Virus record (IMG/VR): IMGVR_UViG_3300042518_000366
Coordinates: 1 to 28,946 of that record
DNA: 28,946 nucleotides
Source of the DNA: a virus
Direction: 5' to 3' (one strand)
Shown here: positions 3,855 through 25,632 of the stretch, in pieces
How the letters are laid out: each line of letters begins with the position of its first letter
How positions within the stretch are numbered: position 1 is the first letter of the stretch
Notes under the pieces: generated by a model
Seen by the model: the letters and a program-made list of their open reading frames with translations, nothing else
Told to the model about the DNA's origin: nothing
Databases searched by the model: none
Position numbers and translations under genes: made by a program

Positions 3855-4310
3855 TTAGCCGATAGCTTCCGTTACAGTGCACGCCCACTGCAGGCGCACA
3901 GCCAGCAGGCCGTCATCCGCCCGCTCCGTCATCGGCACGGCGTACTCGATATTCCCAACCTGGCCGTCGTGCCAGACATAGGTTGCGCCGTCTTTCAGGT
4001 GGCTGTTGTCCACAAGCACCCGTTGCAGTCGCTGCGCGATCTCAAGCCGCTGGACCTGGCTGCGCAGATCATCCTCACCCTTGTTGCGCTTGCGAAGGTA
4101 AAGCAGCTCGATGGCGTACCGGCGCACCTCCGCGAATGCGTGCACAGGCTCGGCGCTTTCGCTGGACACCAGCCGGACCTCGATCCATTCCGGTGCGCGT
4201 GACACATCCTCAGCCTGCGCCCACAGGACCGGCACCTTTCCTGCGAACTCCCCCACGAGCAGGTCACGAAGCTGCGTGAGGATGCCGCCCGCCACATTCG
4301 TGTAGGACAT
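3855..4310 (-). CDS. Probable tail terminator / tail completion protein
   Basis: A 151-residue protein (MSYTNVAGGILTQLRDLLVG...) whose ATG overlaps the stop of the connector gene (TAATG), with CGGAGG upstream. It has an N-terminal helix followed by strands and a basic helix (ELLYLRKRNKG, LEIAQRLQRVL), ending in a strand-rich C-terminus. Size and position between connector and major tail protein match minor tail/tail-terminator proteins, which cap the growing tail tube and bind the head connector. No catalytic signature is present. An alternative is a head-closure protein of similar size, since both types occur in this interval. Confidence 0.6.
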   Translation of the reverse strand: MSYTNVAGGILTQLRDLLVGEFAGKVPVLWAQAEDVSRAPEWIEVRLVSSESAEPVHAFAEVRRYAIELLYLRKRNKGEDDLRSQVQRLEIAQRLQRVLVDNSHLKDGATYVWHDGQVGNIEYAVPMTERADDGLLAVRLQWACTVTEAIG

Positions 4311-5305
4311 TAGAGCCTCCGCAGCTCGATGGACTTCGCCTTCACGCCGGCCTCCGGATCACTGCCGCGCACTTCGATCTCCCACTCGTCCGATACCGTG
4401 TACTTGCCAACGCTGAAGCGCCCGTAGATCCCATGTGCCAGGTACTGATAGGAACCGTCGATCACCACGCCAGACTGTGCCAGCGTGGTCTTCAGGCCCG
4501 TTGAGCTGCCCGTGTAGACGCTGAAGACAACAGTGCTGGCGCTGCCTTCGCTGATCGTGCCTCCGGTTGTGATGAGCACCTTCACCAGATCGAATACAGT
4601 CGCAGCCGTGCCAATGGTATCGATGATCGCCCCGGTGGAGCTGATGTCCTGGTTCACCTCCCGCACAGCGCCGGAATTGTAGGCTCTCGATACCTCGTTC
4701 CACAGCGCAATGTCCCCGCGCTTAATCATATCCAGCAGGCCGGAATTGACCGTGCTCACCCCGAATTCGCTGTTATAGGCCCGCAGGCGCAGCGCCGCGG
4801 CCTTCTCTGCGTCGTATGGCTCGATCAGATAAGAGCACGCCAGATAGGCCGCAGACTGGATGATAACATCGTCCCATTCGCGCAGGCTGTCGCCCTGCAC
4901 GCCGGTTCCGACGCGCTTCAGGATCGGCTTATTCAAGTAGACACGCACGAATTCGGACGCCCGCGCAACGGCCTCAGACTTCACATCAGACCACGCACGC
5001 CCAGCCTGGTAGCGGTGCACCGTGTCGGGGTTGCCGGTTGTGCAGACGGTCAACAGGTCAGTTGTACTGTCGTAATGCCATTCGCCGTCCGCGTTCACAG
5101 CAGCAGCCGTGGCCTGCGCCGCCCCAAGCGTCACGCCGTCACGCCACAGCGCCGTGATATAACCCACATCCCCGCGCGTATACACGCCATCTGTGACATG
5201 CGTGAAGCCTTCCACGACGCGCTTTGTGTCGAATGAATCAATCTGCGGCTCGACCTGGATCAGGTCCGTTGTGGTGTTGCAGTAGCTTTCCCAGCGTGTG
5301 CTCAT
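4310..5305 (-). CDS. Probable head-tail connector / adaptor protein
   Basis: A 331-residue protein. The ATG of MSTRWESYC overlaps the preceding stop (ATGA); an in-frame upstream ATG would invade the preceding gene. Residues around 100-190 are helical and contain an adaptor-like core (WSDVKSEAVARASEFVRVYL ... AAYLACSYLIEP ... AALRLRAYNSEFG), resembling gp6/gp15-type connector helices that dock on the portal. The C-terminal third is beta-rich (VVFSVYTGSSTGLK ... YGRFSVGKYTVSDEWEIEV) and could be an extra Ig-like or decoration-type domain. The protein is longer than typical connectors (100-200 aa), so a two-domain composition is likely. The connector role is an inference from position and helical pattern. 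Confidence 0.55.
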   Translation of the reverse strand: MSTRWESYCNTTTDLIQVEPQIDSFDTKRVVEGFTHVTDGVYTRGDVGYITALWRDGVTLGAAQATAAAVNADGEWHYDSTTDLLTVCTTGNPDTVHRYQAGRAWSDVKSEAVARASEFVRVYLNKPILKRVGTGVQGDSLREWDDVIIQSAAYLACSYLIEPYDAEKAAALRLRAYNSEFGVSTVNSGLLDMIKRGDIALWNEVSRAYNSGAVREVNQDISSTGAIIDTIGTAATVFDLVKVLITTGGTISEGSASTVVFSVYTGSSTGLKTTLAQSGVVIDGSYQYLAHGIYGRFSVGKYTVSDEWEIEVRGSDPEAGVKAKSIELRRL

Positions 5306-5520
5306 TGGATCGCCCTCCACACCATATGCCCGAGCAGGGTGCCCAGCAGTGTGCTGAGCAGCCCTGTCAGGCCGTAGATTAGCAATGCCCGCAGCGAAGC
5401 ACCCACCGCAAGATCTTCGAGGCGGTCAAGCGCCATGCGGTCGTTCCGGCGCTGGTGGAGCAGCTGCACCACGCCATCCGCCATCCGCCGTGTCACAGCG
5501 TCTCGCGTTGCGTCGTTCAC
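5302..5520 (-). CDS. Small single-span membrane protein
   Basis: A 72-residue protein with a GTG start preceded by GAGG, translationally coupled to the connector gene. Residues 1-40 are charged and helical (VVQLLHQRRNDRMALDRLED), and residues 44-70 form a hydrophobic membrane segment (ALLIYGLTGLLSTLLGTLLG). The layout, a soluble helix then one C-terminal span, matches the 73-aa protein at 25629-25850. It immediately follows the exported beta-helix gene and could be a membrane partner of that protein, a holin-like factor or an envelope protein. No family is recognised with confidence. Confidence 0.65.
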   Translation of the reverse strand: MNDATRDAVTRRMADGVVQLLHQRRNDRMALDRLEDLAVGASLRALLIYGLTGLLSTLLGTLLGHMVWRAIQ

Positions 5521-5527
5521 CTCGTCC

Positions 5528-7621
5528 TCACTGGAAGGCCCGCCTCACCTGAAGCGTATCCCCGGACACCTGCTGGAAGGTTCCGGCTCCATTCGTGTGC
5601 GGCGAGAACTGCCACACCTTCAGATTCGCTCTTGCCTGCGGATCTGGCGCGTACATATCCAGCGTGACATCCTTGAGCGCCCCGATGGAGCGGATGCTCT
5701 CCAGCGCCTCCACCGGGTGGCGGAAGCCAGGCTGCGTCTTGCTGATCGCTGGCTGCCCCGGCGATGTAGTGCTGATGCCGACTCGCTGGAAGCCTTCGGC
5801 GGAATCTGTCATCCCCGTAAGGCCGCCGCGCCCGCCGTAGTCCATGCGCCATGATGTGGAGTCGGTGAAGGATGTCGCCGCCATTGAATCGCCGTCGAAA
5901 TCGAACCGCGTCAAATAACGCAACGCCCAACAGTTATTCCCTTCACTCCATCCACTCCCATTTCCACTGCTGCTCATGAAGACATAATCAGCGGCACCTC
6001 TGACGGTGTTGTTGTGGAACCGGTTACCTTTCGCCTGCACGCCTTCCCACGCCCCATCGTCTAACACGTAAGACGTCCCGGCGTCTGTTACTGTCACATC
6101 GTTGTTGTAAAATTCGCAAGAATCGCCGACCGCGAAATATACTCGGCTCACGTCCCCAGTTGACCCGTGATCGATGAAAGTGTTGTTGTAATAGTGGTTC
6201 GCTCGGCCCTTGTCCACGATGCCGTAATGAATCGAGCTGGTCGCCAACTGCTCGAAATAATTGTCGTGCGCCTCGACGTGAGACGCGCCATGCGCGTTAT
6301 CTGCTGCACGCCATGACGCTGCTGGGGTGTCGTCGTTATGAATGACGATGTGACTTGTGCCGTTCGAGATGATTCTGTTATTGGTGAGCGTCACTGAATC
6401 TGGGCATAGGGTGAGCATCGCACTCACCCCAGAAGTTGGGCTCCAATTCGTGTGGTCGATGACGTTAGAATCGAAAGTCCATCGCGACCCAAGTGATGCC
6501 GCAAGCGTGTCTGCGGCAGTGTTCGCGATGAATGCGATGTTCGTTGCGTAGAGCGAGTTCGAAGATATTGTGCAGTCGCTCCCGTAGCTGTAAGCGTAAA
6601 TGAAGTAATCGATTTCGGTTGCGTTGACAACATTAAAGGTGTTGCCAGTTATGTGCCATGTCGGCCCCGCGTCTTTATCGACTGCATATATCATTGCAGC
6701 GCCACTCGCAACAGGTTTCGTCTTGGAAAGCGTGATCGTGTTGTTGGTGAACCAGACTGTTTTGGGGCGTGCCGCCGTTGTCGCGTCAGCGAAATAAAAC
6801 AGGCAGGACTTCCCGGCACTCGCTAAGGCCCAGTATCTGATCGTGCACGAATTTATTCTTACAAGACGGGCGTCGTTGAAGTTAACGTCAGAGTAAGTTG
6901 CGGAGTCGGCTTGAAATGTGCATGTCTGAAAACTGATGGAGTCTACATCACAAGATGCTGTGAAAGACAGCAGGGGGCTGTTGTCAACGCTACCTCCCGT
7001 GAATGTGCACCCGCTGAACATTATTTTGCCAGAGGGATATGCCGCCCACCCGATCTGGTCGCAGGTGTTGATCGTGCAGTTTGAGAAGGTTTGATCCGCT
7101 GCAAGAGATGTACCGCTGAAAAAATAAACCTCTCCAAAGTCCCCAGTTTGTGTTGTGCACGAGTCTAAGGTGCAGTTCGTCATTGCTAGTGGATTGGCGT
7201 CGAAACCGATTCCCCACCCTGTTACTGCGACTTCCGTCCCACTGCCTGGGTGCTTAAATGTGCAGCCCGTGGCGTTAAACGCAAGCGAACTCTTATTAAC
7301 GTATACGGCTGCCGTCAGCCGCAGATTTGTCATCGTCAGCGTGCCCGTCCCGCTGAAAGTGACCTTGTACGCCGTGACTGTCGTTGTCAGGTTCGTGGCG
7401 CCGACAATAACGAGAGCCTTGTTTGAGCACGTATAGGCCGATGCAAGCGCCTCGGTCGACGCCCCAACCTGCTGCAAGGTATCTCCAGAAGACGCGGCCG
7501 TGAGCGCCGCTGTGAAAGTGGCGTGCGTGCCCGTATTGCCAAAGGTGCGGGTGGTGGCCTGCGCGTCCCACACCACAGCCAATAACAGGGCCGTGATACA
7601 TGCGAACAGGTTGCGCCTCAT
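5528..7621 (-). CDS. Exported right-handed beta-helix protein
   Basis: A 697-residue protein. Start chosen at 7621, where the ATG overlaps the stop of the 109-aa gene (ATGA). It begins with a clear Sec signal peptide: MRRN, a hydrophobic core LFACITALLLAVVW, and a probable cleavage after AQA. The rest is a long run of short strand repeats with recurrent Asn/Cys/Thr turns (MTNCTLDSC, FSNCTINTC, FSGCTFTGG, FTNNTITLS, ITGNTFNV, FYNNDVTV, FHNNTVRG), the signature of parallel beta-helix proteins such as pectate-lyase-like enzymes, tailspikes and adhesins. The last ~75 residues form a separate module that matches the C-terminus of the neighbouring 109-aa protein. No catalytic residues can be assigned. 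A Sec signal is unexpected for a virion protein, so export by the infected host is the simplest reading. The central part is visibly less GC-rich than both ends. Confidence 0.8.
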   Translation of the reverse strand: MRRNLFACITALLLAVVWDAQATTRTFGNTGTHATFTAALTAASSGDTLQQVGASTEALASAYTCSNKALVIVGATNLTTTVTAYKVTFSGTGTLTMTNLRLTAAVYVNKSSLAFNATGCTFKHPGSGTEVAVTGWGIGFDANPLAMTNCTLDSCTTQTGDFGEVYFFSGTSLAADQTFSNCTINTCDQIGWAAYPSGKIMFSGCTFTGGSVDNSPLLSFTASCDVDSISFQTCTFQADSATYSDVNFNDARLVRINSCTIRYWALASAGKSCLFYFADATTAARPKTVWFTNNTITLSKTKPVASGAAMIYAVDKDAGPTWHITGNTFNVVNATEIDYFIYAYSYGSDCTISSNSLYATNIAFIANTAADTLAASLGSRWTFDSNVIDHTNWSPTSGVSAMLTLCPDSVTLTNNRIISNGTSHIVIHNDDTPAASWRAADNAHGASHVEAHDNYFEQLATSSIHYGIVDKGRANHYYNNTFIDHGSTGDVSRVYFAVGDSCEFYNNDVTVTDAGTSYVLDDGAWEGVQAKGNRFHNNTVRGAADYVFMSSSGNGSGWSEGNNCWALRYLTRFDFDGDSMAATSFTDSTSWRMDYGGRGGLTGMTDSAEGFQRVGISTTSPGQPAISKTQPGFRHPVEALESIRSIGALKDVTLDMYAPDPQARANLKVWQFSPHTNGAGTFQQVSGDTLQVRRAFQ

Positions 7622-7947
7622 CGGTAGACCCTCCCGATCCGCAGCGTGTCTTGGCAAGTCTTCGCCCAAGTCGAATCCCCATTCGTATGCAGCCCATGGA
7701 GCCACAGGTCCAGGTTCGCAATGTCTGATTCACTTGGCGCCCAATAGTCCAGAGTCATGGGAAGGGTGAGCCCAGTGGAATCGCGGATCGAATACACAGC
7801 CTCAATGGGCGATTCATATCCGGCCTGGTTGCGGTTTATTTCCAAACCGTGGGATGCCACGGCGAGGAGCAGCGTAACACACAGCAGGAGCAGCATGCCA
7901 GCCGCCCAGCCGAACACGCCGCGCCCGTTTTCGTTTCTCGATTCCAT
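7618..7947 (-). CDS. Membrane-anchored protein sharing the beta-helix C-terminal module
   Basis: A 109-residue protein with a hydrophilic N-terminus (MESRNENGRG), one strongly hydrophobic segment at about residues 11-32 (VFGWAAGMLLLLCVTLLLAV) and a ~75-residue soluble domain. That domain aligns with the C-terminus of the adjacent 697-aa protein: P-(I/V)-E-A..SIR, a TLD followed by AP, ANL-(D/K)-.W, HTNG and DTL, about 35% identity by eye with one gap. The hydrophobic stretch may be a membrane anchor or an uncleaved signal, since no convincing signal-peptidase site follows. The gene is coupled to the beta-helix gene by ATGA. The shared module suggests that the two act together outside the cytoplasm. 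Function unknown. Confidence 0.7.
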   Translation of the reverse strand: MESRNENGRGVFGWAAGMLLLLCVTLLLAVASHGLEINRNQAGYESPIEAVYSIRDSTGLTLPMTLDYWAPSESDIANLDLWLHGLHTNGDSTWAKTCQDTLRIGRVYR

Positions 7948-7955
7948 GCGCCCTC

Positions 7956-8111
7956 CTACAGACCGAGTTTCTTGGCCGTCTCGTCCACCCTGCGCTTCAG
8001 GCGATCCGTGTGCTCACGATGCCAGCGTTCAGACTTCACGCCGGAAGGCACCTGCTCACGGATGGTGCGCAGGCGCTCCAGATCGCTCGCCAGCTGTTTC
8101 TTTTCATCCAT
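7956..8111 (-). CDS. Small charged helical protein downstream of capsid gene
   Basis: A 51-residue open frame (MDEKKQLASDLERLRT ... DETAKKLGL) with a GGAGG ribosome site 6 bases before the ATG, lying between the capsid hairpin and the 109-aa gene. The composition is highly charged, with heptad-like spacing predicting one long helix or coiled coil. It could be a head-completion or chaperone-like factor, but nothing in the sequence decides this. Confidence 0.6.
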   Translation of the reverse strand: MDEKKQLASDLERLRTIREQVPSGVKSERWHREHTDRLKRRVDETAKKLGL

Positions 8112-8134
8112 CAGCAGCCTCCAGAAAGGCAGCA

Positions 8135-8150
8135 GGGCGCCGAAGCGCCC
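8135..8150 (-). terminator. UUCG-loop hairpin after capsid gene
   Basis: Minus-strand GGGCGC-TTCG-GCGCCC, a 6-bp GC stem with the very stable UUCG tetraloop, lies about 20 bases past the capsid stop. No U-run follows (TGCTGCC), so it is more likely a partial attenuator or a 3'-stability element that raises capsid mRNA over downstream genes than a full intrinsic terminator. Confidence 0.55.
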
Positions 8151-8168
8151 CGCATGCCTTGGCTTTTT

Positions 8169-9032
8169 TTAGCCGTTGACAATCTTCAAAACGCCGTAAG
8201 CGTTAAGCACGGTGCAACCCATGACATCGTGCACCGCGAAGCCTTCACCCACATGCAGGGGCTCGGGCGTCGGGCCGATGATACGCACGCCGCTGTGCGC
8301 GAAGCCCAGGGCGCTGGGGTGCCAGATGGTGGCGCACTCATCCGTGGTGCCACTCGTCCAATCGGAGCTGATGAAAACACGCATGCCGAGAACAGTCCCC
8401 TCGACACCGGTGGCAGGGAATTCCTGCGCCTGCGTCCCACGGTAGGCCGCGCTGTAGAACTTGTCTCCCCAGTCGGCAACCGACAACTCAAAGGCACCAG
8501 GCGCAATGCCCATCGCGCAGTTGCGGATCTGGATGCGGTTCGCGCCGAAGGTACTCTGCGCCGTCAGCAGGTTGGCCCAGGTCACCGTGTTGTTCGTGCC
8601 CGTGGTGATGGCAGTATTCGTGGTCTCACCCTTAACGGTAGTGGCGAGCAGGCTGTCCAAGCTGTTGGAGAGGCTCTCACCAGCCATGCGGGCGAAGCTG
8701 TTGAAAATGTCCACCGAAGTCTGGAGCTGAGTGATGTCCTCGATCAGGTAGGCCAGCGCATACTGCGAGCTCATTGTGATCGTGGGAGCGCTTTGAACCG
8801 TGCCAGCGCCGTACACCAGCGTGGTCTGCGTGGTCTTGGCCACAGCGGCGTCCTTCGAGATGTGCGGCACAGTGATAGCCTTGTTGCCGGGTGTGGCCAG
8901 GCTGGAGTAGTCCGTGGCAGCGTTGCTGATGCTGGAGTACTCAGTCCAATAGCCTGCCACCGCAGGCGCGAAGGTGGTCTGGAGGAACGCGGCCATCGCC
9001 GTGTTGCCCAGCAGGTAAGCCTCATTCGCCAT
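8169..9032 (-). CDS. Major capsid protein
   Basis: A 287-residue protein starting MANEAYLLGNTAMAAF, with AAAGGA upstream of the ATG. It follows the scaffold gene and is followed by a strong hairpin, as usual for the most abundant phage protein. The texture fits HK97-fold coats of the P22 or generic phage-capsid type: an N-terminal arm, beta strands around AITVPHISKDAAV, a long spine-like helix (SVDIFNSFARMAGESLSNSLDSLL) and strand-rich A-domain segments (GTVLGMRVFISSDW; VHDVMGCTVLNAYG). No N-terminal maturation-protease delta domain is evident, which agrees with a separate scaffold protein and no protease gene nearby. It forms the icosahedral shell. Confidence 0.85.
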   Translation of the reverse strand: MANEAYLLGNTAMAAFLQTTFAPAVAGYWTEYSSISNAATDYSSLATPGNKAITVPHISKDAAVAKTTQTTLVYGAGTVQSAPTITMSSQYALAYLIEDITQLQTSVDIFNSFARMAGESLSNSLDSLLATTVKGETTNTAITTGTNNTVTWANLLTAQSTFGANRIQIRNCAMGIAPGAFELSVADWGDKFYSAAYRGTQAQEFPATGVEGTVLGMRVFISSDWTSGTTDECATIWHPSALGFAHSGVRIIGPTPEPLHVGEGFAVHDVMGCTVLNAYGVLKIVNG

Positions 9033-9048
9033 TGTCGTGTCCTTTCAA

Positions 9049-9588
9049 TTAAGTGCCGGTGATGGCACTCCAGTTTTCGCGTAGGAACTTCTGCCCGCCA
9101 TCGCGAACGCCCTTCTGCACCTGTTCGGGCGTCAGGCGTCCCGAAGGAACCGGGCTACCAGGTCGCGCAGGCGGCTGGACAGCGGGTTGCCCTGCCGGTG
9201 CCTGCTGCTTCAGGCGCTCTACAAGCACCTCAAGCTTTTCCAAAGGAAGCCCATCGGCTAGGGTCTTGTCTGCGTCTGTCAGCCCTGCGAGAAGCGTCTC
9301 GCGGCGTTGGGTGACGTAGGCATCGAACTGCTCAGCCTTCGGAAGCACGGCAGCAAGCTGCTCCTCGTACTTGGCCCGCAGCTCTTCCCACTTCCCCTTG
9401 GCCTCCAGATCGGCCCGTGACCGCGCCTCTTCGGCGTCCACCAGTTGCGCCAGCTTGCGCTCGGCCGACTTCATCCGGCTATTCACCTCGTCGAAGCGTG
9501 CCTTCGGGATCATGCCCCCAGCCTCGCCAGCATCCGCGCTGGCCTGCGGATTCACCTGTGCGCCGGTGGTCGCGTCATTGTCCGCCAC
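9049..9588 (-). CDS. Capsid scaffolding protein
   Basis: A 179-residue, highly charged protein with a GTG start preceded by AGGAGG. Residues ~25-85 form a Glu/Lys/Ala coiled coil (FDEVNSRMKSAERKLAQLVD, EARSRADLEAKGKWEELRAK). A Pro/Ala/Gln-rich flexible linker follows (about 128-150), then a C-terminal helical tail (LTPEQVQKGVRDGGQKFLRE). Position immediately upstream of the capsid gene and the coiled-coil/linker/helix layout fit an internal scaffold that directs procapsid assembly, its C-terminus contacting the coat. No protease signature is seen, so the scaffold is probably released rather than processed in cis. Confidence 0.8.
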   Translation of the reverse strand: MADNDATTGAQVNPQASADAGEAGGMIPKARFDEVNSRMKSAERKLAQLVDAEEARSRADLEAKGKWEELRAKYEEQLAAVLPKAEQFDAYVTQRRETLLAGLTDADKTLADGLPLEKLEVLVERLKQQAPAGQPAVQPPARPGSPVPSGRLTPEQVQKGVRDGGQKFLRENWSAITGT

Positions 9589-9597
9589 AAGGGCCTC

Positions 9598-10107
9598 CTA
9601 GCTTTTGCCGATGTTTATGTCGATGGGCTCCCTTGCCCACTTCTCTAGCTTCTCGTCGGTATCGATAGCAATTGCTTCCAGCACCGCCGCGGTCAATTGC
9701 GGATGCGGCTCTGCGTCGTTCGAGAAATCGATGATTGCGCGGCCCATGTCCGCATTCCAAGACGCGCGATCTCCGAAGGTTGCCCAGCCGATGTGAGAAC
9801 CATTCTCGTCTGCTCCCAAGGTCTTCAAGTCGCGCATCATGTCGCCGGAAAAGCGCAGGTCCGGCGGTGATATCCGCGTGCTTGCTTGACGGAAACCGGC
9901 CCCTGCCTCCTTGAGCGTTTTGTTCTTTTGGCGAGGCAATTTCTTTGATTTTTGATCAGCGTATTCCTGACAGTACTGCGGAAAGGCCTCGCCTTTATAA
10001 TCGACGCCCTTGTCTGTGATCGCCTTCAGCAGCATTACGCACTTGTCCCCCAGCTTCTTCCAGAATTCAGGCGTGCGGTTCACGACGTCGGCTAGTTCAA
10101 GCGCCAT
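9598..10107 (-). CDS. Unknown virion-module protein
   Basis: A 169-residue protein (MALELADVVNRTPEFWKKLGDKC...) overlapping the end of the head morphogenesis gene by 11 bases. It is lysine-rich in the middle (YADQKSKKLPRQKNKTLKEAG) and contains a segment (PPDLRFSGDMMRDLKTLG followed by SHIGWATFGDRASWNADMG) that recalls the LRxSG...DL...IGW pattern of small virion-morphogenesis and neck proteins. It lies between head morphogenesis and scaffold genes, so a role in head assembly or stabilisation is plausible. I cannot place it in a family with confidence. Confidence 0.6.
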   Translation of the reverse strand: MALELADVVNRTPEFWKKLGDKCVMLLKAITDKGVDYKGEAFPQYCQEYADQKSKKLPRQKNKTLKEAGAGFRQASTRISPPDLRFSGDMMRDLKTLGADENGSHIGWATFGDRASWNADMGRAIIDFSNDAEPHPQLTAAVLEAIAIDTDEKLEKWAREPIDINIGKS

Positions 10108-10954
10108 CGTCTCTCTCCCGCGCAGTCAAGGGTGTTCCCCACGTCCCTTCTTCCTCACGCGCCGCGATGGCTTCAGCAGCGGCCTCAGGATCAACTTCAA
10201 AGGCTGCATCCGCTGGCTCCCACGAGTGACGGCAGTTCCACCCGCCGCCATCAATGAATGCGCCCGGGAACTGCTCCTCAATTTCGGCCAGCGTTAAAGC
10301 CCCTGCGGCAGCCATCTCTAGGCAGATGTCACGTGTGATGTCGTCGAGCGGCCCCTCGTATAGGTACTCAGTGTCGGGCGGATCTTGTTTCGCCATTTCG
10401 TACCCGACAGCACGAGAGAAGGTGCTGAGTGCCGTCGCTGCTTCTGTTTGCGCATTAGCGAGAGCTGCTTTACTACCGGCCTCAGCGTTCTTGATGAATG
10501 CCGCAAGATTCTTTTCAACGTCGCTCGTCCGCCCGCCACCGAGAACAGTTTTAATCAGCTCCCCTTTCAGTTGCTCCGGCATGGCGCTGGCCTTCGCGAG
10601 GAATGAATCTCGCGTGAAGGACTGCAGCGCCACCAGCTGGGACTCGGCCACAGGATGGCGCCCGATGGTGTTGGCAAGCACTTCGGCATAGGCTGTGCCC
10701 ATCTGGGACAGCGCTTTCCCAAAGCCGCTGGACTCTGCAAGCGCCCTGAAGTCTGTGGCGCCAAGCACGCGCACCAACTCGTCCGGCGTTATCCCACGCG
10801 AAAGCAGGCCGTCCACCAGCGTGACCACGGATTGGTTGAAGGATGAGAAGGCCCGCGCATACTGCCCGCTGCGCGTATCGATCAGGTCACGGATGCCGAC
10901 AGCGCCGCGCTCCAGCACCTTCTTCCTGATCGGAGTGACCACGACGCGTGCCAT
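10097..10954 (-). CDS. Phage head morphogenesis protein (SPP1 gp7 / Mu F-like)
   Basis: A 285-residue protein coded directly downstream of the portal, with GGAG before the ATG. The N-terminal two thirds is helical. The C-terminal part has the pattern typical of minor head proteins in this family: a YEGPLDDITRDICLEM segment, then EEQFPGAFIDGGGWNCRHSW and a trailing Pro. In relatives this protein is packaged in the procapsid with the portal and is injected or helps DNA entry. The two Cys and the His in the conserved segments could bind a metal. The Ala/Glu-rich C-terminal tail (residues ~250-280) is low-complexity. The family call is fairly secure; the exact role is inferred. Confidence 0.82.
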   Translation of the reverse strand: MARVVVTPIRKKVLERGAVGIRDLIDTRSGQYARAFSSFNQSVVTLVDGLLSRGITPDELVRVLGATDFRALAESSGFGKALSQMGTAYAEVLANTIGRHPVAESQLVALQSFTRDSFLAKASAMPEQLKGELIKTVLGGGRTSDVEKNLAAFIKNAEAGSKAALANAQTEAATALSTFSRAVGYEMAKQDPPDTEYLYEGPLDDITRDICLEMAAAGALTLAEIEEQFPGAFIDGGGWNCRHSWEPADAAFEVDPEAAAEAIAAREEEGTWGTPLTARERDDGA

Positions 10955-10960
10955 ATCGCG

Positions 10961-12301
10961 TTACTCCACCGGCGCTGCAAGAAGCTCCGACAGCGTAGGC
11001 TGGCGCACAGGCGGGGCTGTGATATCCACCTGGCGCTCCTGGGCCACAGCCTGAAGCTTCTGCGCTACCTGTTCGTCCGAGATGTCAGGGTTCGACAGCC
11101 GGAAGTAGTCTGCCTTCGTGGCAAGCCCGTTGTCGTACTCAAATTTCCATCGCGCCATCTTCTGCTCGTCCGACAGCGGGATATTTGGCTCTACGAAATC
11201 CACAGCCAGAAGCTCGCCCAGGTTGCCCAGGCCGTGCCGCTCTGCCACGGCCACGCAGCGCTCGTGTAGCTCGCGCTCCACATAACGCCAGGTTGCGAAG
11301 TCGCCGCTGATGGAATTCGTGAGCTCGATCTCAAGAATGCGCTGGTGCTCGCCGGATGTCGCGCCACCGTCTGCGGCCCACTTCGCCTTGATTCCATACC
11401 GGAAGCATAGCGCGTCCATCTTCCAGCGCTGCGCATCCATGATCTGGCCAAGCTGTCCGGGCGGCGCAATCATTTCGAACCGGGCCTGCGGGTCGTGCAT
11501 CGTCACAACCTTATTCGCCCCCAGCCGGATCTGATCCGTTTCCATCGATCCGGTGGCCACAGCCTGCCCCAGCGCCTGGAACAGAAGCCCCGCGTTGTGC
11601 TGCGTGCCCAGGACATTGTAGGTCAGCTGGGCCTCCAGAACATCGTGTGCGATAGGCCGCCACCACGAAGTCCCTAGCTGGTGCCCACGATGCGCGAACA
11701 CTACCGGCACAATGCCGTAGGGATTTTCCATCTCTTCGGCTGGCGTGAGCACGCGGCCCGACCCGTCCACATGGATGCGTAGGGCGTCCGTCCAGCACTC
11801 CCACTCCTGATCCACGGCGTCCGGCTTCCGGTTCGCAAAAACAGGATAACAGACGCCAACAGGCTCGGGGTCAGCGCCCACGAAGATCGGCTCCATTTCG
11901 GTCATGAGGACGAAGTGCAGCCGCTTGTCCTCCTCGTCAACCGTGACCACCAGGCCCTCGGTGCCCAGCAGCCCCGTCAGGCGCTCGAATATGGGCATGA
12001 TGCTATCCCGGTTGCCCCAGACCATTGGGTCTGTATCGACCGAGTACAGCCGCCCCGGGGCCTCACGGTACACGCCATAGCGCGTGTCGATCACCTTGCC
12101 AGCCACGGGCAGCGTGTCCACCGTGATCTGCTCCAGGAGCCCACGGTCGAAAAGCTTTTCCACATCGCCGCGCAGGCCAATGCCCTGGTAACGATCCACA
12201 GCGCGTCTACGCTCTGCCAGGTGCGCCATTCCGCCAAGCTGGCGGCTCAATGCACTGATGCCATGGGCAATGGCGGCAGGGGTGATTTCGTCCAGGATCA
12301 T
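10961..12301 (-). CDS. Portal protein
   Basis: A 446-residue protein beginning MILDEITPAAIAHGISALSR, two bases after the terminase stop. An in-frame upstream ATG would overlap terminase and is less likely. The mix of an alpha/beta N-terminal region and long helices in the second half (HDVLEAQLTYNVLGTQHNAG, FATWRYVERELHERCVAVAE) fits a portal stem and crown. Position between the large terminase and the head morphogenesis gene is canonical. It should form the dodecameric DNA channel at one vertex, bind the packaging motor and later the connector. The C-terminus ends in a short Pro-rich tail. No motif alone proves it, but context is strong. Confidence 0.85.
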   Translation of the reverse strand: MILDEITPAAIAHGISALSRQLGGMAHLAERRRAVDRYQGIGLRGDVEKLFDRGLLEQITVDTLPVAGKVIDTRYGVYREAPGRLYSVDTDPMVWGNRDSIMPIFERLTGLLGTEGLVVTVDEEDKRLHFVLMTEMEPIFVGADPEPVGVCYPVFANRKPDAVDQEWECWTDALRIHVDGSGRVLTPAEEMENPYGIVPVVFAHRGHQLGTSWWRPIAHDVLEAQLTYNVLGTQHNAGLLFQALGQAVATGSMETDQIRLGANKVVTMHDPQARFEMIAPPGQLGQIMDAQRWKMDALCFRYGIKAKWAADGGATSGEHQRILEIELTNSISGDFATWRYVERELHERCVAVAERHGLGNLGELLAVDFVEPNIPLSDEQKMARWKFEYDNGLATKADYFRLSNPDISDEQVAQKLQAVAQERQVDITAPPVRQPTLSELLAAPVE

Positions 12302-12302
12302 G

Positions 12303-13508
12303 CTACCACCTCGGCTTTGAGACGACTTCGCGCGATGCCACTGGATAGCAATATTCGACAGCATAGGTGGCGGCGTCCATTGCGTGCGGGTCGTGCGCCT
12401 TCTTGTCGATGCCGCCGTCCGCCGTTCGCTGCGTGCGTTCGCAGTCCCGAATAAAGGTCTTGCACTTCGGATCGATCCAGATGCGCTGGCGTCCGCTGGC
12501 GTCCATCAGCATCCGGTTGAAGGCGTTCATGCGGTCCAGGTGCTCAGGCGCGTGCCGGTGAGCGTGGATCGTGTAACCTGCCTCGCGCAGGATGTCATGG
12601 TTGGTTTTCCTGAAACTGGTGCTCCGGCTGGCCCCCGTCGGGTCAGGGTAGATATCGCGCACCTGTGGCCAGCGCTCCTTCAGCCTCTTCGCCATCAGCT
12701 CCGTGTAGGCGTTGTTACCGATCACGATCTCGTCCACATAGTGGATTCCTTCAGGCCGCAAGTCCATGACCTCACAGACCATCGGCTCCACATTGAAGTC
12801 GAGCCCGGCAACCAGGCGGACATAGTTCCCGTTGTGTTCAGCCACATGAATGGCCCTGTCGAACATGTACGCCGCCCGGTTGCCTGAGCTCTCGAAGGAT
12901 GCTTCATACTCCTGCGCGTAAAGCCACGGGTCCATGTCGGCCCGGGCTGCTTCGACTTCGGCAGGGTCCACGAATGGGGATTCCGCCGTAGTCGAATGCC
13001 AGCTCATCCACTCGGTGTTTCCAGGGTCTTGACCCTTCGCGTGCAGGTCGTAGTGGTGGTTGAAACCACGCGGCGTCGAAGGGAAGAACGCAGGACCCTT
13101 AGACTGCGTGAGCATCGGTCGCAGGATGCCATCCCACACATCCGGCTTTGACCACAGCGCGAACTCATCACAGACCACCTTGGCCAGGCCCACGCCCACC
13201 AGCCCATCGGGATTGTCCGCCCCATGCAATTGCGTCTTCGCGCCATTCGCCCATGTAACGGTCAGCTCGCTCTCGCTGATGCCCTTCGCGCCGATGCCGT
13301 TGGCACGGGCCAGCTTCTTCACCAGCGGCCACATGATTTGCTTGGCCTGCTTCCGGAATGGCGCCACATACCACAGCAGCCCTTCCGGCACCACAAGCCC
13401 GCTGTGCAGCCACAGGCAGGCCTCCCGCGACTTCCCAGACCTTCGCCCCCGCGTCGCCACCTTGAACCGCGCAGGGTGGCGCAGCGTTGCGCGAACAACA
13501 TCCGTCAT
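12303..13508 (-). CDS. terL: Terminase large subunit
   Basis: A 401-residue packaging motor and nuclease when started at the ATG at 13508. A TTG at 13526 behind GAGG is an in-frame alternative that adds six residues. Visible motifs are a Walker A variant GRRSGKS (residues 21-27), a Walker B VVCDE (111-115) with its catalytic Glu, and a coupling motif STPRG (144-148). The C-terminal RNase H-like nuclease has acidic residues at GLDF (D237), around YVDE/YPDP (260, 288) and HAMDAA (D378). It translocates DNA into the procapsid through the portal and cuts the concatemer. Cutting mode (headful or cohesive) cannot be read from the sequence, though circular closure of the assembly fits circular permutation. 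Confidence 0.93.
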   Translation of the reverse strand: MTDVVRATLRHPARFKVATRGRRSGKSREACLWLHSGLVVPEGLLWYVAPFRKQAKQIMWPLVKKLARANGIGAKGISESELTVTWANGAKTQLHGADNPDGLVGVGLAKVVCDEFALWSKPDVWDGILRPMLTQSKGPAFFPSTPRGFNHHYDLHAKGQDPGNTEWMSWHSTTAESPFVDPAEVEAARADMDPWLYAQEYEASFESSGNRAAYMFDRAIHVAEHNGNYVRLVAGLDFNVEPMVCEVMDLRPEGIHYVDEIVIGNNAYTELMAKRLKERWPQVRDIYPDPTGASRSTSFRKTNHDILREAGYTIHAHRHAPEHLDRMNAFNRMLMDASGRQRIWIDPKCKTFIRDCERTQRTADGGIDKKAHDPHAMDAATYAVEYCYPVASREVVSKPRW

Positions 13509-13515
13509 GCGCAGG

Positions 13516-13881
13516 TCAGGAATCAACCGATGAATCCTCGGTAGTTTCGTCGGCGTCTTGCGGCGTCGGGTCGCCGTCGTAATCGATGATCTTGATTGCG
13601 CGAACCACCTCAACATCCGCCTGGATCTGGTCTCGCACCTTGCCTTCTGTGCGCTCGGCGATGAATTGGACGGCCCAGCTCTGGCCCTTCAGCGCATAGC
13701 CGAACACAGCCCGCAGCACGGCCTCCAGCTTCGTGATCGTCTGCCCCTGGTGGACCAGCTCCTCTTCCCCGATGCGCTGGAGGATGGCCTCGATTCGGCG
13801 CGGCGACTTGTGCCGCCCACCCATGCGCGGGTGAGCAGCACCAGCCACGAAGCGGCCTGCGTTGTCCCGACCCTCAGCCAT
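13516..13881 (-). CDS. Probable terminase small subunit
   Basis: A 121-residue protein directly upstream of the large terminase and overlapping the methyltransferase stop. A basic N-terminal region (RMGGRHKSPRRIEAILQR) leads into a helical core (EELVHQGQTITKLEAVLRAV, QSWAVQFIAERTEGK), and an acidic disordered tail ends the protein (PQDADETTEDSSVDS). The basic helix could bind the packaging site, and the acidic tail could contact the large subunit. The N-terminus also recalls DUF5681-like phage proteins often annotated as packaging factors. The assignment rests mainly on position and size. Confidence 0.65.
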   Translation of the reverse strand: MAEGRDNAGRFVAGAAHPRMGGRHKSPRRIEAILQRIGEEELVHQGQTITKLEAVLRAVFGYALKGQSWAVQFIAERTEGKVRDQIQADVEVVRAIKIIDYDGDPTPQDADETTEDSSVDS

Positions 13882-15115
13882 CGATCAACTCCGGCGTCCC
13901 GCCCGTCGCGTCAGCCCAGCGCTGGATTGCGACGGCCACATAGCCGGGACTGATTTCAATCGCCCTACACTTCCGACCGAGTTGCTCGCAGGCGATGATC
14001 GTCGTCCCGCTGCCGCTGAATGGCTCGTAAACGATTTTAGCAGCGTGATTTTTTATTATCCTTGAACACAACTCTACCGGTTTTGATGTTGGATGAAGCC
14101 TGGTCTCTCCAGATGCTCCTTGTTGCCTTTTAAAGTCTAGAACAGTCGGCTCATTATTTAGCCCAATCCAGCTTCTATTCTTTCCTTTCCACCCGTAAAA
14201 CACCGGTTCGTGCTGTGGTTTATAATCCCACCGAGCGATAATTAGACTCAACTTGTTCCAGACCAAGTCGACTTGAAAATGCCACTTGTCCCAAGGCCAT
14301 GCGCTCCAAAAGTGACGGCCTTCCGCACCGGGCGGGTGCCAGATATAAATAGCCGCTCCCTCCGATAAAGCCGAATCAGCGACCAAGAAGCAATTTTTTA
14401 ACCATTCGGAAAAATCATCTATTGAATCCTTAAAGGAATTCCCATTCCATATTTTATCTTCACCGCCAAGAATCTTCCCGCTTTGAATGTAGTTTCCTTC
14501 ATAGGCTACGTTATATGGCGGGTCGGTGAACATCATCTCGGCTATATCTCCACTCATAACGCGCTCGACATCCTCGACCTTCGTAGAGTCGCCGCAAAGA
14601 ATCCGGTGCGAACCGAGTTCCCAAAGCTGCCCGGTCTCTACTCCCCACTTCTCGCGCAACTCCTCGGCCTTGTCTTCCTGCGGCTCGGCGTCCACGTCGG
14701 TTGGCTCGATGGTCTGCCCCAGAAGCGCGGCGAGGTCGGCATCGCTGAAGCCCAGCAGCTCCGGGTCGAAGCCCAGCCCGCTCAGGTCGTCCAGCTCCAG
14801 CTTGAGCATGTCCGCCTCCCAGCCGGCATGAGTCGCCAGTTGGTTGTCTGCCAGCACGTAGGCACGCGCCTGGGCCTCGGTGAGATGCGAGAGGAAGATG
14901 GCAGGCACGGTGTCCATGCCCAGCTTGCGGGCTGCCAGAACGCGCCCGTGGCCTGCGATGATCGTGAAGTCGTCACGCAAGAGAACGGGGTTGTTGAAGC
15001 CGAACTCCTTGATGGAGGCAGCGATCTCGGCCACCTGCTCGGGCGAGTGTGTGCGGGCATTCCTGGCGTAGGGGATCAGCGCATCAATCGGCTGATTCTG
15101 GACATTAAGGTCCAT
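13874..15115 (-). CDS. ParB-domain / DNA adenine methyltransferase fusion
   Basis: A 413-residue bifunctional protein. The start at 15115 sits behind GGGAGGG; an upstream in-frame ATG adds 17 residues but lacks such a site. Residues ~5-95 form a ParB/Srx-type domain (LIPYARNARTHSPEQVAEIA, IIAGHGR). The rest is a beta-class N6A/N4C methyltransferase with motif IV TDPPYN first (197-202), then the target-recognition region, then the AdoMet motif FSGSGTT (366-372). Relatives methylate phage DNA against host restriction or for regulation. Bases ~14035-14500, which encode the target-recognition region, are clearly AT-richer than both ends of the gene. The gene lies just upstream of the terminase pair, possibly linking methylation to packaging. 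Confidence 0.9.
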   Translation of the reverse strand: MDLNVQNQPIDALIPYARNARTHSPEQVAEIAASIKEFGFNNPVLLRDDFTIIAGHGRVLAARKLGMDTVPAIFLSHLTEAQARAYVLADNQLATHAGWEADMLKLELDDLSGLGFDPELLGFSDADLAALLGQTIEPTDVDAEPQEDKAEELREKWGVETGQLWELGSHRILCGDSTKVEDVERVMSGDIAEMMFTDPPYNVAYEGNYIQSGKILGGEDKIWNGNSFKDSIDDFSEWLKNCFLVADSALSEGAAIYIWHPPGAEGRHFWSAWPWDKWHFQVDLVWNKLSLIIARWDYKPQHEPVFYGWKGKNRSWIGLNNEPTVLDFKRQQGASGETRLHPTSKPVELCSRIIKNHAAKIVYEPFSGSGTTIIACEQLGRKCRAIEISPGYVAVAIQRWADATGGTPELIDG

Positions 15116-15140
15116 TAGTCCCTCCCAATTTTGGCCAACC

Positions 15141-15464
15141 TTAGCACTCCTCCTCCGCTTCGGCACGGGCCTTCGGGCCGTATCGATACCGCCCGTCCTT
15201 GCGTTCTTCTATGCGCGACAGCCACACCAGCGCTTCCATGTAGTCCACCCACAGGTGGCCGGATGCGTCAACAGGGCCTGCACCGAAGGCGGCGGCGTGA
15301 GCCCAGAATACATCGTTGCGGCATGCGCTGCGCAGGCTGGCCTCGTCGTGAACCACCTGCTCGACGATTTCAGGGTAGCGCCGGAATTGACGCGGCCGCC
15401 AGTTCGGGTCAGGTGCGTATGGGTCCAGGGCGTCAAGCTCAGCATCGGTCAGCGTCTTACGCAT
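15141..15464 (-). CDS. Hypothetical protein upstream of methyltransferase
   Basis: A 107-residue protein (MRKTLTDAELDALDPYAPDP...) with AGGAGG 6 bases before the ATG, overlapping the resolvase stop by 8 bases. It is rich in Trp, Arg and acidic residues, contains helices (RYPEIVEQVVHDEASLRSAC) and ends in a charged tail (GPKARAEAEEEC). No family is recognised and no catalytic motif is seen. The position between resolvase and methyltransferase suggests a DNA-metabolism accessory. Confidence 0.7.
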   Translation of the reverse strand: MRKTLTDAELDALDPYAPDPNWRPRQFRRYPEIVEQVVHDEASLRSACRNDVFWAHAAAFGAGPVDASGHLWVDYMEALVWLSRIEERKDGRYRYGPKARAEAEEEC

Positions 15465-16092: not shown

Positions 16093-16184
16093 TGCATCGC
16101 CCTTTCGCCGCTCAGCCACGAGGCGAACGGGTGGACGATCTCCAGCGTCCAGCCGGGCCGGGTGTTCACGCGCTGCGCTTTCAC
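16089..16184 (-). CDS. 31-aa ORF sharing the PAPS-reductase N-terminus
   Basis: A 31-codon frame with a GTG start overlapping the previous stop (GTGA) and followed by another GTGA overlap. It encodes KAQRVNTRPGWTLEIVHP and ends SGERAMQ. The segment RVNTRPG is shared with the N-terminus of the PP-loop protein just upstream, and the DNA for it is a perfect 25-bp repeat. It could be a small functional peptide or the scar of a duplication of the PP-loop gene's 5' end. No ribosome site beyond coupling is evident. Confidence 0.4.
   Translation of the reverse strand: MKAQRVNTRPGWTLEIVHPFASWLSGERAMQ
16150..16174. repeat. 25-bp direct repeat, copy 1
   Basis: The plus-strand sequence starting cagccgggccgggtgttc is perfectly repeated at 16941-16965. 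This copy lies in the 31-aa ORF just past the PP-loop gene stop. The two copies flank almost the whole PP-loop gene, 791 bp apart. Confidence 0.9.
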
Positions 16185-16984
16185 TCAGTCGCCCCCATGC
16201 AGTCGCAAGCGGCTCCCCCGTCAGTTTCGTCAAACAGGTCGGGGCTTCTGTCCAGGCGCTCGCGCAAGGCGCGCATAGTCAGAGGAGTCGCCGCTCCGCC
16301 ACTCCGGTCTTTCATGATGGACACGTCCTGCTGAAGGAAGTCCCGCATCCGCTGCTCTTCTTCCTCGTGGTACAGGTACAGGCATCGGTTATCCCTCAAG
16401 AGGTGCGCGAACTGGCGTTGGCCAGCCTTGAAACAGAACCCGCCGCAGTTGTTGTGTTCGTACCCGCGCCGGTACAGGGATGGGATCTCGATGCCGAGTT
16501 CCGAGATGATCCGCTTTGCGTCCCATCCGCACACGATGGGCTTGTCGATCAGCGGGAACCAGCACGGGAACTCCGACCCCTTTGCCCTTCGCTCGGCTCG
16601 CTCCGGCTCCTCTGCGCTGAACCCATAGACGACAAGCTCCGGCTGGTAGTCTCTCATCAGCTTTGCGAACAGATCACGCTTGAGGATTCGGCTGCATTGG
16701 CCGGTTTGGCTGTTCGGGATGAACATCACGTCCCTGGCCACTTTCCACAGGGTGCGGCCATCGGCTATCCTGAGAGTCTTGACTCCGAACGCCTTATCAC
16801 AGTCATCGAGGAACCGATGGAGATCCGCATCCTCTGCCTTCGTATCGCAAAACACCGGCAGCACACCATCTGGCCCGAACATCTCCACCGCCCGGAGGAG
16901 TGCCACGGCAGAGCATACCCCGCCAGAGACGCTCACCACGCAGCCGGGCCGGGTGTTCACGCGCTTGCACTTCACCTCATCCAC
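16181..16984 (-). CDS. PAPS-reductase-like PP-loop protein
   Basis: A 267-residue member of the adenine nucleotide alpha-hydrolase (PP-loop) superfamily, close to phage 'phosphoadenosine phosphosulfate reductase' proteins. The start is GTG at 16984 with GAGGAGG six bases upstream. The nucleotide-binding PP-loop is VSVSGGVCSAVA (SGGxxS at 20-25). A Cys pair in HNNCGGFCFKAGQ (C180, C184), plus C97 in TGQCSR, resembles the metal or Fe-S/disulfide motif common in phage homologues and DndC-like proteins. Classical assimilatory PAPS reduction is unlikely in a phage. Roles in nucleotide, DNA or tRNA modification or in evading host defence are possible but unproven. The gene is flanked by 25-bp direct repeats, one of which is its own 5' coding end. 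Confidence 0.8.
   Translation of the reverse strand: MDEVKCKRVNTRPGCVVSVSGGVCSAVALLRAVEMFGPDGVLPVFCDTKAEDADLHRFLDDCDKAFGVKTLRIADGRTLWKVARDVMFIPNSQTGQCSRILKRDLFAKLMRDYQPELVVYGFSAEEPERAERRAKGSEFPCWFPLIDKPIVCGWDAKRIISELGIEIPSLYRRGYEHNNCGGFCFKAGQRQFAHLLRDNRCLYLYHEEEEQRMRDFLQQDVSIMKDRSGGAATPLTMRALRERLDRSPDLFDETDGGAACDCMGATE
16941..16965. repeat. 25-bp direct repeat, copy 2
   Basis: Identical to 16150-16174. It encodes the RVNTRPG part of the PP-loop protein's N-terminus, so both copies are read in the same protein phase. Confidence 0.9.
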
Positions 16985-17050: not shown

Positions 17051-17323
17051 TCAACCTTCGCCGAAGCCCGAGCCGGAGCCGTAGCCGTAGCCATCGCCCC
17101 AGCCTTCGCCGGAGCCGGAGCCGTAGCCGTAGCCCGAGCCGTAGCCGTAGCCGTCGCCGTAGCCCGAGCCGTAGCCGTAGCCGTCGCCGTCGCCGTAGCC
17201 GGAGCCGGAGCCGTAGCCGTAGCCGTCGCCGTCGCCGTAGCCGGAGCCGGAGCCGTAGCCGGAGCCGGAGCCGTAGCCGGAGCCGGAGCCGTAGCCCTCG
17301 CCCGAGCCGTCGCCGTCTGTCAT
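17051..17323 (-). CDS. Gly/Tyr/Ser low-complexity repeat protein (GYGSG type)
   Basis: A 90-residue protein starting MTDGDGSGEGYGSG, its ATG overlapping the stop of the DUF6948-like gene (ATGA). After the first residues it is built entirely of G-Y-G-S/D-G dipeptide-like repeats and ends GSGFGEG. It has no Lys or Arg and alternates Gly with Tyr, Ser, Asp or Glu, so it should be disordered and acidic. The DNA is a degenerate hexamer-type tandem repeat. Its twin at 17760-18002 uses Trp instead of Tyr and ends with the same GEG-stop. The two flank the DUF6948-like gene. Coupling and the paired arrangement argue for real genes; function unknown, with condensate-forming or sticky scaffold roles possible. 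Confidence 0.6.
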   Translation of the reverse strand: MTDGDGSGEGYGSGSGYGSGSGYGSGSGYGDGDGYGYGSGSGYGDGDGYGYGSGYGDGYGYGSGYGYGSGSGEGWGDGYGYGSGSGFGEG

Positions 17324-17694
17324 GCAGTCCATACCGGCACCCCATCGATGCTGGCCTTGGCCTTCGCGCTCACCGAAAGCACCTCGATCACCTCGGTTAG
17401 GGTCACTTCCGGCACCTCACAGGGAAACTTGCACTCGCCAGGGGACTTCGTGCCATGCTGGCTGAGCTCGCTCAGGCTCGCAGCCCCAGCCCACCGCCAG
17501 ATCCGGCGGGCATTGAGGAGCACGGCCTCTTTGCCATCGCGGCACTTCAGGAAGCCAGCGAACACACCAGCCGAGTAGGTTCGGCACATCACATAGGGCA
17601 TCCCGTCCACGGGTTCCGCCATGCCAACTACCGAGTCAGCAGGCACATACCGGACGCCGTTCACTACGATCTCGGTCGCTTCGATTTTGGTCAT
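17320..17694 (-). CDS. DUF6948-like protein
   Basis: A 124-residue protein (IVVNGVRYVPADSV, PYVMCRTYSAGVFAGFLKCR, DGKEAVLLNARRIWRWAGAA, SLSELSQHGTKSPGECKF, VTLTEVIEVLSV, ending VPVWTA). This succession of motifs is one I associate with a phage/prophage family of unknown function, DUF6948, whose members often lie beside Gly-rich low-complexity genes. It seems to be a compact alpha/beta domain, with 'VRTRSAGVFAG...NARRLWYWAGAASL' being the recurrent core. There is no membrane segment or catalytic motif. It is coupled to the GYGSG gene by ATGA and follows the GWGSG gene by 65 bases. Function unknown. Confidence 0.7.
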   Translation of the reverse strand: MTKIEATEIVVNGVRYVPADSVVGMAEPVDGMPYVMCRTYSAGVFAGFLKCRDGKEAVLLNARRIWRWAGAASLSELSQHGTKSPGECKFPCEVPEVTLTEVIEVLSVSAKAKASIDGVPVWTA

Positions 17695-17759
17695 TTCTCG
17701 ATCCTCGCTTTAGTTACTGCCCGTCAATCTTCTCATCGATGAAATTCTCGCCGTCGCCG

Positions 17760-18002
17760 TCAACCTTCGCCGGAGCCCTGGCCCTGGCCACAGCCTTCGC
17801 CATCGCCCGAGCCCCAGCCATCGCTGTCGCCCGAGCCCGAGCCCCAGCCCGAGCCCGAGCCGTAGCCCCAGCCCGAGCCATCGCCCTCGCCCGAGCCGTA
17901 GCCCGAGCCCCAGCCATCGCTGTCGCCCGAGCCCGAGCCCCAGCCCGAGCCGTCGCTGTCGCCCTCGCCGTCGCCCGAGCCCGATCCGTCGCGAATCTTC
18001 AT
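17760..18002 (-). CDS. Gly/Trp/Ser/Asp low-complexity repeat protein (GWGSG type)
   Basis: An 80-residue protein starting MKIRDGSGSGDGEG. Start chosen because AAGGAGG lies at ideal distance from this ATG; an in-frame ATG 30 bases upstream lacks such a site. The repeats are G-S-G-D-S-D-G-W-G-S-G, with Trp as the periodic aromatic, and a late Cys-Gly-Gln segment (EGCGQGQGSGEG). Net charge is strongly negative. It has the same architecture and ending as the Tyr version at 17051-17323, with DNA repeats built from the same gcccgagcc-like unit. The twin arrangement around the DUF6948-like gene suggests duplication and divergence. Function unknown. Confidence 0.6.
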   Translation of the reverse strand: MKIRDGSGSGDGEGDSDGSGWGSGSGDSDGWGSGYGSGEGDGSGWGYGSGSGWGSGSGDSDGWGSGDGEGCGQGQGSGEG

Positions 18003-18099
18003 GCATCCTCCTTTTTCATTCGGTCGATCCATAATCTGCCCGTAGCGGGCTCCAAATTGACTAACCCATGGCTTGGTACTACTGAGCGTAGATCGTGGC

Positions 18100-23316: not shown

Positions 23317-23655
23317 TTATTTCATTCCCTCGTGCGCCAGGCTGTAGTGGTTCGGGTCTTTGAAGCGCCCGCCCCAAGTCCCGCCCTGCGCTTCCCACCA
23401 TTCGCCCAGCGCCCGGTGCGCATCGGCGCCCTCAAGGTAGGTACCGTCGGGCGCGAACAGGTTCAGGTCGATGGCAAGGCGAACCTTGTGGCAAGACCTG
23501 GCGTGCCCGTAGGCACGCGCAACGCCGACAGGGCCGTGTACCCTTGGATCGCGGTACGCGTCGCCCAGCGTGACTGTCATTCCCATTTCCTGGGCTTTCA
23601 GCAGCAGCCGCGCCACCAGCATGGCGAACCGGTGTTGCTTCGCAACCAGACTCAT
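23317..23655 (-). CDS. Endolysin, M15-family peptidase
   Basis: A 112-residue protein, ATG overlapping the previous stop (ATGA). It has the M15 (VanY/D,D-carboxypeptidase or L-Ala-D-Glu peptidase) zinc motif: SCHKVRLAIDLNLF supplies H56 and D63, and WGGRFKDPNHYS supplies H103. The preceding Trp/Gly-rich GEWWEAQGGTWGG is typical of phage endolysins of this family. It cleaves peptidoglycan stem peptides at the end of infection. There is no signal peptide, so it needs a holin-type partner. It is the last gene before the terminator. Confidence 0.93.
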   Translation of the reverse strand: MSLVAKQHRFAMLVARLLLKAQEMGMTVTLGDAYRDPRVHGPVGVARAYGHARSCHKVRLAIDLNLFAPDGTYLEGADAHRALGEWWEAQGGTWGGRFKDPNHYSLAHEGMK

Positions 23656-25096: not shown

Positions 25097-25632
25097 AGCG
25101 TTACCCTGAACGCTGTGCGGAGCCCTCCGTAAGCCTGGGAGACATGCACAGGCCAGACCTCTGAAGGCTCCGGCCACATGGTTTTGAATTGCGCAGGGCG
25201 GGCCTCTCCACGGGCAAGCGCCTCAATCTCCGAGCAGAACCAGCGGTCGTTGTCCTTGACCTTGCGCCCCATGGCCACGCGGGTGAGCATGGCTAGTGGA
25301 GCTTCGTACTTCGCTCCCAGCAGACTAAATAGCGCAGCCTGGTACTTGCGTTGTTCCTTCTCTGAAAAGCGGGCAGGCCACCAGTAGATCCCGCCTTTGC
25401 TGCGCTCCGAGATCCAGCGGGACAGCGCAACCAGGTGGACGCCGGTGCCCAGCGTTGTCTCCAGAACCATGCGCCGCCCGGCCACCACCACAATGCCGCA
25501 GACATGCGAGACATCGCCCTTGGTCACCAGCTTGATGCCCCGCTGGATCAGCCCCGGCGTATCGGTTGCCAATAGGTCTCCGGTCTGCATGAGCTGGGAA
25601 GCGGCACCGTAGGACATGGTGCCCGCCGTCAT
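25093..25632 (-). CDS. Permuted papain-like hydrolase (YiiX/NlpC-P60 type)
   Basis: A 179-residue protein, start by ATGA overlap with the XhlA-like gene. The order of catalytic motifs is inverted, as in YiiX/YebB-type circularly permuted NlpC/P60 enzymes: the His segment comes first (GDVSHVCGIVVVAG) and the Cys segment last (DRWFCSEIEALARG). The N-terminal TGDLLATDTPGLIQRGIKLV also fits this family. It probably cleaves peptidoglycan cross-links, lipids or amides; in this place it may help local cell-wall digestion at infection or lysis. Catalytic identity is inferred from motif order, not proven. Confidence 0.8.
   Translation of the reverse strand: MTAGTMSYGAASQLMQTGDLLATDTPGLIQRGIKLVTKGDVSHVCGIVVVAGRRMVLETTLGTGVHLVALSRWISERSKGGIYWWPARFSEKEQRKYQAALFSLLGAKYEAPLAMLTRVAMGRKVKDNDRWFCSEIEALARGEARPAQFKTMWPEPSEVWPVHVSQAYGGLRTAFRVTL

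Follow-up and report, generated by a model that had tools for sequence, protein, structure and literature searches.

Receptor-type beta-helices of phages are usually regarded as parts of the virion. Glycan-directed tailspikes are known to swap receptor domains even between phage genera (PMC10408124), and a tailspike-like beta-helix is also found in WceF of Pantoea stewartii, an exported bacterial enzyme that cleaves exopolysaccharide (PMC7949094). Exported phage products include Llp, which enters the envelope of the T5-infected cell (PMC9586334), and Lys44, the signal-peptide endolysin of Oenococcus phage fOg44 (PMC6116005).

Here we describe a gene pair, P0002 and P0001, in a 28,946-nt stretch of viral DNA (positions 1 to 28,946 of IMG/VR record IMGVR_UViG_3300042518_000366, hereafter the window). 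Like phage tailspikes and depolymerases (P22, HK620, LKA1 gp49; PF13229-type folds), P0001 is a predicted right-handed beta-helix encoded among virion genes, and, as in tailspikes, its core appears to have passed from one phage to an unrelated one, with the phage-specific ends left in place (PMC10408124). Unlike tailspikes, P0001 has a predicted signal peptide in place of the N-terminal virion-binding domain, shares its C-terminal module with P0002, a small exported-type partner, and could not be matched in sequence to anything in 50,697 phage records. WceF likewise combines a beta-helix with a cleavable leader and serves as a precedent for extracellular action of a tailspike-like protein, but it is a bacterial Tat substrate from a biofilm operon (PMC7949094). 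Llp shares with the predicted P0001 its route into the infected cell's envelope; Llp, however, is a lipoprotein of small size, and exclusion proteins are described as early products, whereas P0001 is a large beta-helix encoded by a late operon. Lys44 resembles it as a lytic-phase phage protein that uses host Sec, and a P0001 homologue in a second phage abuts lysis genes; unlike Lys44, P0001 carries no peptidoglycan hydrolase domain, and the M15-family endolysin candidate of the window (23317-23655) lies away from it.

Layout of the gene pair

The window phage encodes a RecT recombinase and is proposed to be tailed, with its genes in siphovirus-type order. The sequence-only reading had placed a coupled gene pair at 5528-7947, between capsid and connector genes. 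The ORF positions bear out these coordinates (Table 1), and the capsid assignment stands on a profile match; the "connector" (4310-5320) has no family match and is assigned by position only. The pair follows the capsid gene, from which it is parted by a hairpin that is likely a terminator setting the capsid level above that of the genes downstream. The TGA of P0002 and the ATG of P0001 (at 7621) overlap as ATGA, which points to translational coupling, and both genes have Shine-Dalgarno sequences, TAGGAGGG for P0002 and GGGAGGG, 8 nt upstream of the start, for P0001. Any signal for a promoter of the cassette's own was no better than chance, and no tRNA or Rfam features were found. The small ORF upstream of P0002 matches no family above cut-off. 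The gene of the 72-aa protein starts 7 bp downstream of P0001, and its product has no family match in Pfam/PHROG-type profile searches.

Table 1. Features of the cassette and its flanks (window coordinates; a slash marks the predicted cleavage site)
Feature	Coordinates	Strand	Basis
72-aa protein with C-terminal membrane span, possibly a cassette member	5302..5520	(-)	hydropathy 1.85 at residue 45
P0001, 697 aa, exported-type right-handed beta-helix protein (predicted)	5528..7621	(-)	ORF and Shine-Dalgarno, PF13229, L003 homologue
Module copy 1, about the last 66 residues of P0001	5528..5728	(-)	similarity to copy 2
Probable foreign beta-helix core of P0001, codons 57-588	5858..7453	(-)	codon comparison, GC, nucleotide match
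Predicted Sec signal peptide of P0001, residues 1-22, SPase I site AQA/TT	7556..7621	(-)	rule-based scan
P0002, 109 aa, signal peptide or signal anchor (residues ~11-31) plus module	7618..7947	(-)	leader rule, Shine-Dalgarno
Module copy 2, about the last 65 residues of P0002	7618..7815	(-)	similarity to copy 1
51-aa charged small ORF upstream of P0002, same operon	7956..8111	(-)	translation
Strong terminator-like hairpin directly after the capsid stop codon	8107..8160	(-)	RNA fold, z = -3.6
Major capsid protein	8169..9032	(-)	phrog_267, E 1.3e-11

Export signals and the shared module

Export was assessed with a rule that combines a hydrophobic 10-mer, an A/V-x-A site at fitting distance and a non-negative n-region, applied uniformly to 70 ORFs from the window and from a second viral contig, IMGVR_UViG_3300044858_004797 (L003), which encodes an 846-aa homologue of P0001 at L003:5866-8406. 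At plausible starts the rule was passed by only three of the 70 ORFs, namely P0001, P0002 and the L003 homologue; it was also passed at one internal start of a C92-type protein, an unlikely gene start, and shuffled N-termini pass in 1-4% of cases. The leader of P0001 is of the classic Sec type (MRRNLFACITALLLAVVWDAQA, with the predicted cut before T), with a hydrophobic 10-mer mean of 2.97 and an n-region charge of +2, in support of the signal peptide first noticed by eye. The leader of the L003 homologue is different in sequence and keeps the AQA/TTRTFG junction; such retention of the cleavage motif behind an independent leader, in an unrelated phage, strengthens the export reading. The hydrophobic segment of P0002 is also there, but it ends AVA/SHG, which fits a cleavable signal peptide equally well, and the earlier description of P0002 as membrane-anchored is thus uncertain. 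Neither protein has a lipobox: the P0002 leader reads LLLLCV without a [GA]C site, and P0001 has an A-x-A site. Taken by these sequence rules, export of the pair is well supported.

The two proteins share one plan, a leader followed by a passenger in P0001 alone and then by the module, which makes up nearly the whole mature part of P0002. Across 65 aligned columns the two module copies are 41% identical and 26 positions are invariant; searching the window links them at E 5e-13, and their local score of 131 lies far above a shuffle mean of 21 +/- 4 (z = 28, with 0/5000 shuffles reaching 131). The module is therefore real, and more alike between the copies than the 35% first estimated by eye. 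Identity falls to only about 54% at the DNA level, which marks the duplication as old. Searches of genomes, viruses, phages, Pfam, PHROG and the PDB confirmed no relative of the module; those of genomes and viruses relied on short patterns, two of them against 84,980 species genomes. A host sorting tag of T9SS-like kind was considered and is little favoured for want of such relatives, which is weak evidence given short-pattern scans. AlphaFold confidence (pLDDT) stays below 50 across the module in both protein models. The module may plausibly serve in docking, multimerisation or retention.

The beta-helix core and its homologue in an unrelated phage

The claim of a 697-aa beta-helix protein is borne out by a PF13229 (Beta_helix) match above the curated cut-off (E 9.7e-10, 38.7 bits against 25.9). 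P0001 contains 16 cysteines and many repeated F-x-N-[C/N]-T-[I/F] turns; the beta-helix begins right behind the predicted cleavage site, and no other domain was detected, an N-terminal virion-binding domain of tailspike type included. It matched no enzyme family, and no catalytic residues could be recognised. AlphaFold models, built from two sequences, were weak (mean pLDDT 51 and 47.5), and fold searches with them returned mostly beta-helices, including tailspikes and alginate lyases, none of them significant; the best match to a solved tailspike had E 0.01 from a weak model.

The L003 phage is probably podoviral, judging from gene order, and its portal belongs to phrog_156. Outside the beta-helix gene its DNA is unrelated to that of the window, and only the lysis proteins are similar (~42-52% in amino acids). 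Ahead of the homologue lie a 185-aa gene and a tail-fibre gene (phrog_24210, E 1e-4); behind it comes a lysis cassette of a small holin-like membrane protein, a C92-like/amidase-like protein and an M15-type endolysin. Its last ~220 residues (L003:7747-8406) are unrelated in sequence to the window module, and the C-terminal part reaches the tailspike Ig-like family PF20745 only below threshold (E 0.0045), with no other family match. We note that this region holds three degenerate, helical-looking repeats of ~60 residues (W..xPKPxNxSD...Y..LP.AT); kinship of these repeats with the module, suggested by an SDxAxFxIW-like motif seen by eye, was rejected after scores equal to those of shuffles.

Window positions 5799-7569 match L003 at 95.7% in nucleotides, and the match is sharply partitioned. 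Codons 20-56 of P0001 have diverged from the homologue, codons 57-247 differ by about 4%, and codons 248-588 (1,023 bp) are identical in DNA; past codon 588 the two diverge, with homology still continuing to about codon 608. The boundaries at codons 56/57, 247/248 and 588/589 are abrupt. The GC content of P0001 is 63% in codons 1-56, 53% in codons 57-588 and 64% in codons 589-697; the window as a whole has 60.5% and the L003 record 54%. The lower GC of the core, its L003-identical DNA and the phage-specific ends around it together suggest that a lower-GC, L003-like core probably replaced the resident beta-helix core by recombination, with the leader and the module left in place. The same phage is represented by another contig, L006, which is identical to window positions 6684-12857 and includes the N-side junction at codon 56/57. 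L006 ends within the 1,023-bp L003-identical stretch, so the C-side junction is carried by the window contig alone.

Searches for further kin of P0001 gave none in the 50,697 phage records, in 72,556 plasmids or, by pattern search, in the 84,980 species genomes; a sequence search of the PDB found no WceF-like protein, and four viral scans with different patterns returned L003 and L006 alone. Pattern scans detect close relatives only, and such absence is therefore weak evidence; no source of the beta-helix turned up among bacteria, plasmids or isolated phages. A terminase and capsid search for relatives of the phage gave the near-identical L006 and distant terminases, with no informative cassette. 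Among isolated phages the terminase had distant matches only, spread across many hosts, and the portal had no match.

Possible roles of the putatively exported pair

We tentatively favour a reading in which P0001 is a late-expressed, Sec-exported, glycan-directed beta-helix that works at the envelope or in the surroundings of the infected cell, held or multimerised by a phage-specific module; we put it just short of an even chance. P0001 would be made late, alongside the virion proteins, pass through host Sec, be cut after AQA and fold outside the cytoplasm, where its right-handed beta-helix would bind or cleave a surface or extracellular glycan of the host. The module would multimerise P0001 or retain it at the envelope, with P0002 as a membrane-side or capping partner. 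By masking or stripping the phage's own receptor glycan, P0001 could keep progeny from being trapped on debris or exopolysaccharide at lysis. The beta-helix would be an exchangeable specificity part passed between phages of the same host, the leader and C-terminus remaining phage-specific. The sequence itself carries the leaders, the module, the operon and the core replacement; export as such, the glycan target, the role of the module and the benefit are inferred. Glycan-directed tailspikes evolve by swapping the central beta-helix while their ends stay phage-specific (PMC10408124), which makes a host glycan the probable partner of the P0001 core. Judging by the leader, this encounter would take place outside an infected cell rather than on a virion, and expression late in infection would fit a task during lysis and release, such as removing or masking receptor or exopolysaccharide, better than an early, Llp-type exclusion (PMC9586334). 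The sequence-only reading had left an adhesin, a depolymerase, a decoy and a superinfection blocker side by side. The post-capsid position, the placement of the L003 homologue, with a tail-fibre gene on one side and lysis genes on the other, and the core swapping favour a late glycan- or receptor-directed protein, and an early superinfection blocker loses ground.

The same fold and the same location among virion genes would also suit a virion spike, on tail or head, whose N-terminus is unused for export or which joins the virion after export, with the module docking and P0002 as docking partner. Swapped beta-helix cores are typical of tailspikes (PMC10408124), and the L003 homologue follows a tail-fibre gene and has the sub-threshold PF20745 match. 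Yet two divergent leaders have been retained as signal peptides with the same SPase I site, the mature protein would start directly with the beta-helix in place of the usual N-terminal virion-binding domain, and the window gene adjoins the capsid gene, distant from the tail-tip genes. We regard a virion spike as unlikely, although it is the strongest competitor.

For P0002 itself, doubtful but compatible with any reading of P0001, is the view that it is a functionless remnant of a duplicated P0001-like gene that has lost its passenger. Its composition of leader and module is what such a remnant would look like, but the ORF is intact, with a good Shine-Dalgarno sequence and the ATGA coupling, and the module is 41% conserved with its motif residues kept. 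P0002 is also identical in L006, though that copy is too close for a test of selection.

Phages are known to encode exported accessory proteins, such as lambda lom, among their structural genes, and this counts for a reading of P0001 as a superinfection-exclusion or decoy protein on the infected cell that would block the phage's own receptor in the manner of T5 Llp, with no glycan cleavage. Llp sets a precedent, being exported and blocking the receptor of T5, but exclusion proteins are described as early (PMC9586334), which sits poorly with a gene behind the capsid gene, and P0001 lacks a lipobox and is far larger than Llp; we think this role improbable. The core replacement could, finally, be an assembly chimera in which L003-type reads were joined across the shared stretch, as the identical 1,023 bp and the end of L006 within them might suggest, but this is very improbable, since L006 is a separate record that contains the N-side junction, the ~4% difference in codons 57-247 means that these were not copied from the L003 contig, the frame is open across both junctions with homologous residues running past codon 588, and the module on either side of the core ties the flanks together.

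A broader class may be envisaged, possible though on balance rather unlikely: Sec-exported, glycan-directed phage beta-helices whose receptor-type core is traded as a cassette between morphotypes on one host and whose leader and phage-specific module, the latter also carried by a small partner, fix their place outside the cell, in effect a secreted or surface-displayed "tailspike" of the infected cell and not of the virion. Independent leaders in two unrelated phages, together with a recent exchange of the core only, suggest that phages also trade such domains for off-particle use. Were this true, those annotating metagenomes should be wary of labelling each phage beta-helix as a tailspike.

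Several minor observations concern the remainder of the two genomes. At the protein level the lysis cassette is common to the window phage and L003, with an M15-type endolysin nearby in L003; C92 YiiX-like permuted-papain proteins are encoded at window 25093-25850 (just below the PF05708 cut-off) and at L003:8416-9140, each beside a small holin-like protein. Upstream of the terminase genes of the window, the ORF at 13874-15166 combines, by eye, a ParB-like N-terminus with a DNA methyltransferase. The window ORF at 16181-16984 resembles a PAPS-reductase/PP-loop protein, again by eye. GYGSG-rich repeat genes with a six-base period and 42 copies of a 6-mer lie at 17051-18006, and the 16-18 kb stretch around them is 79-86% identical to L006, against 100% around the capsid gene.
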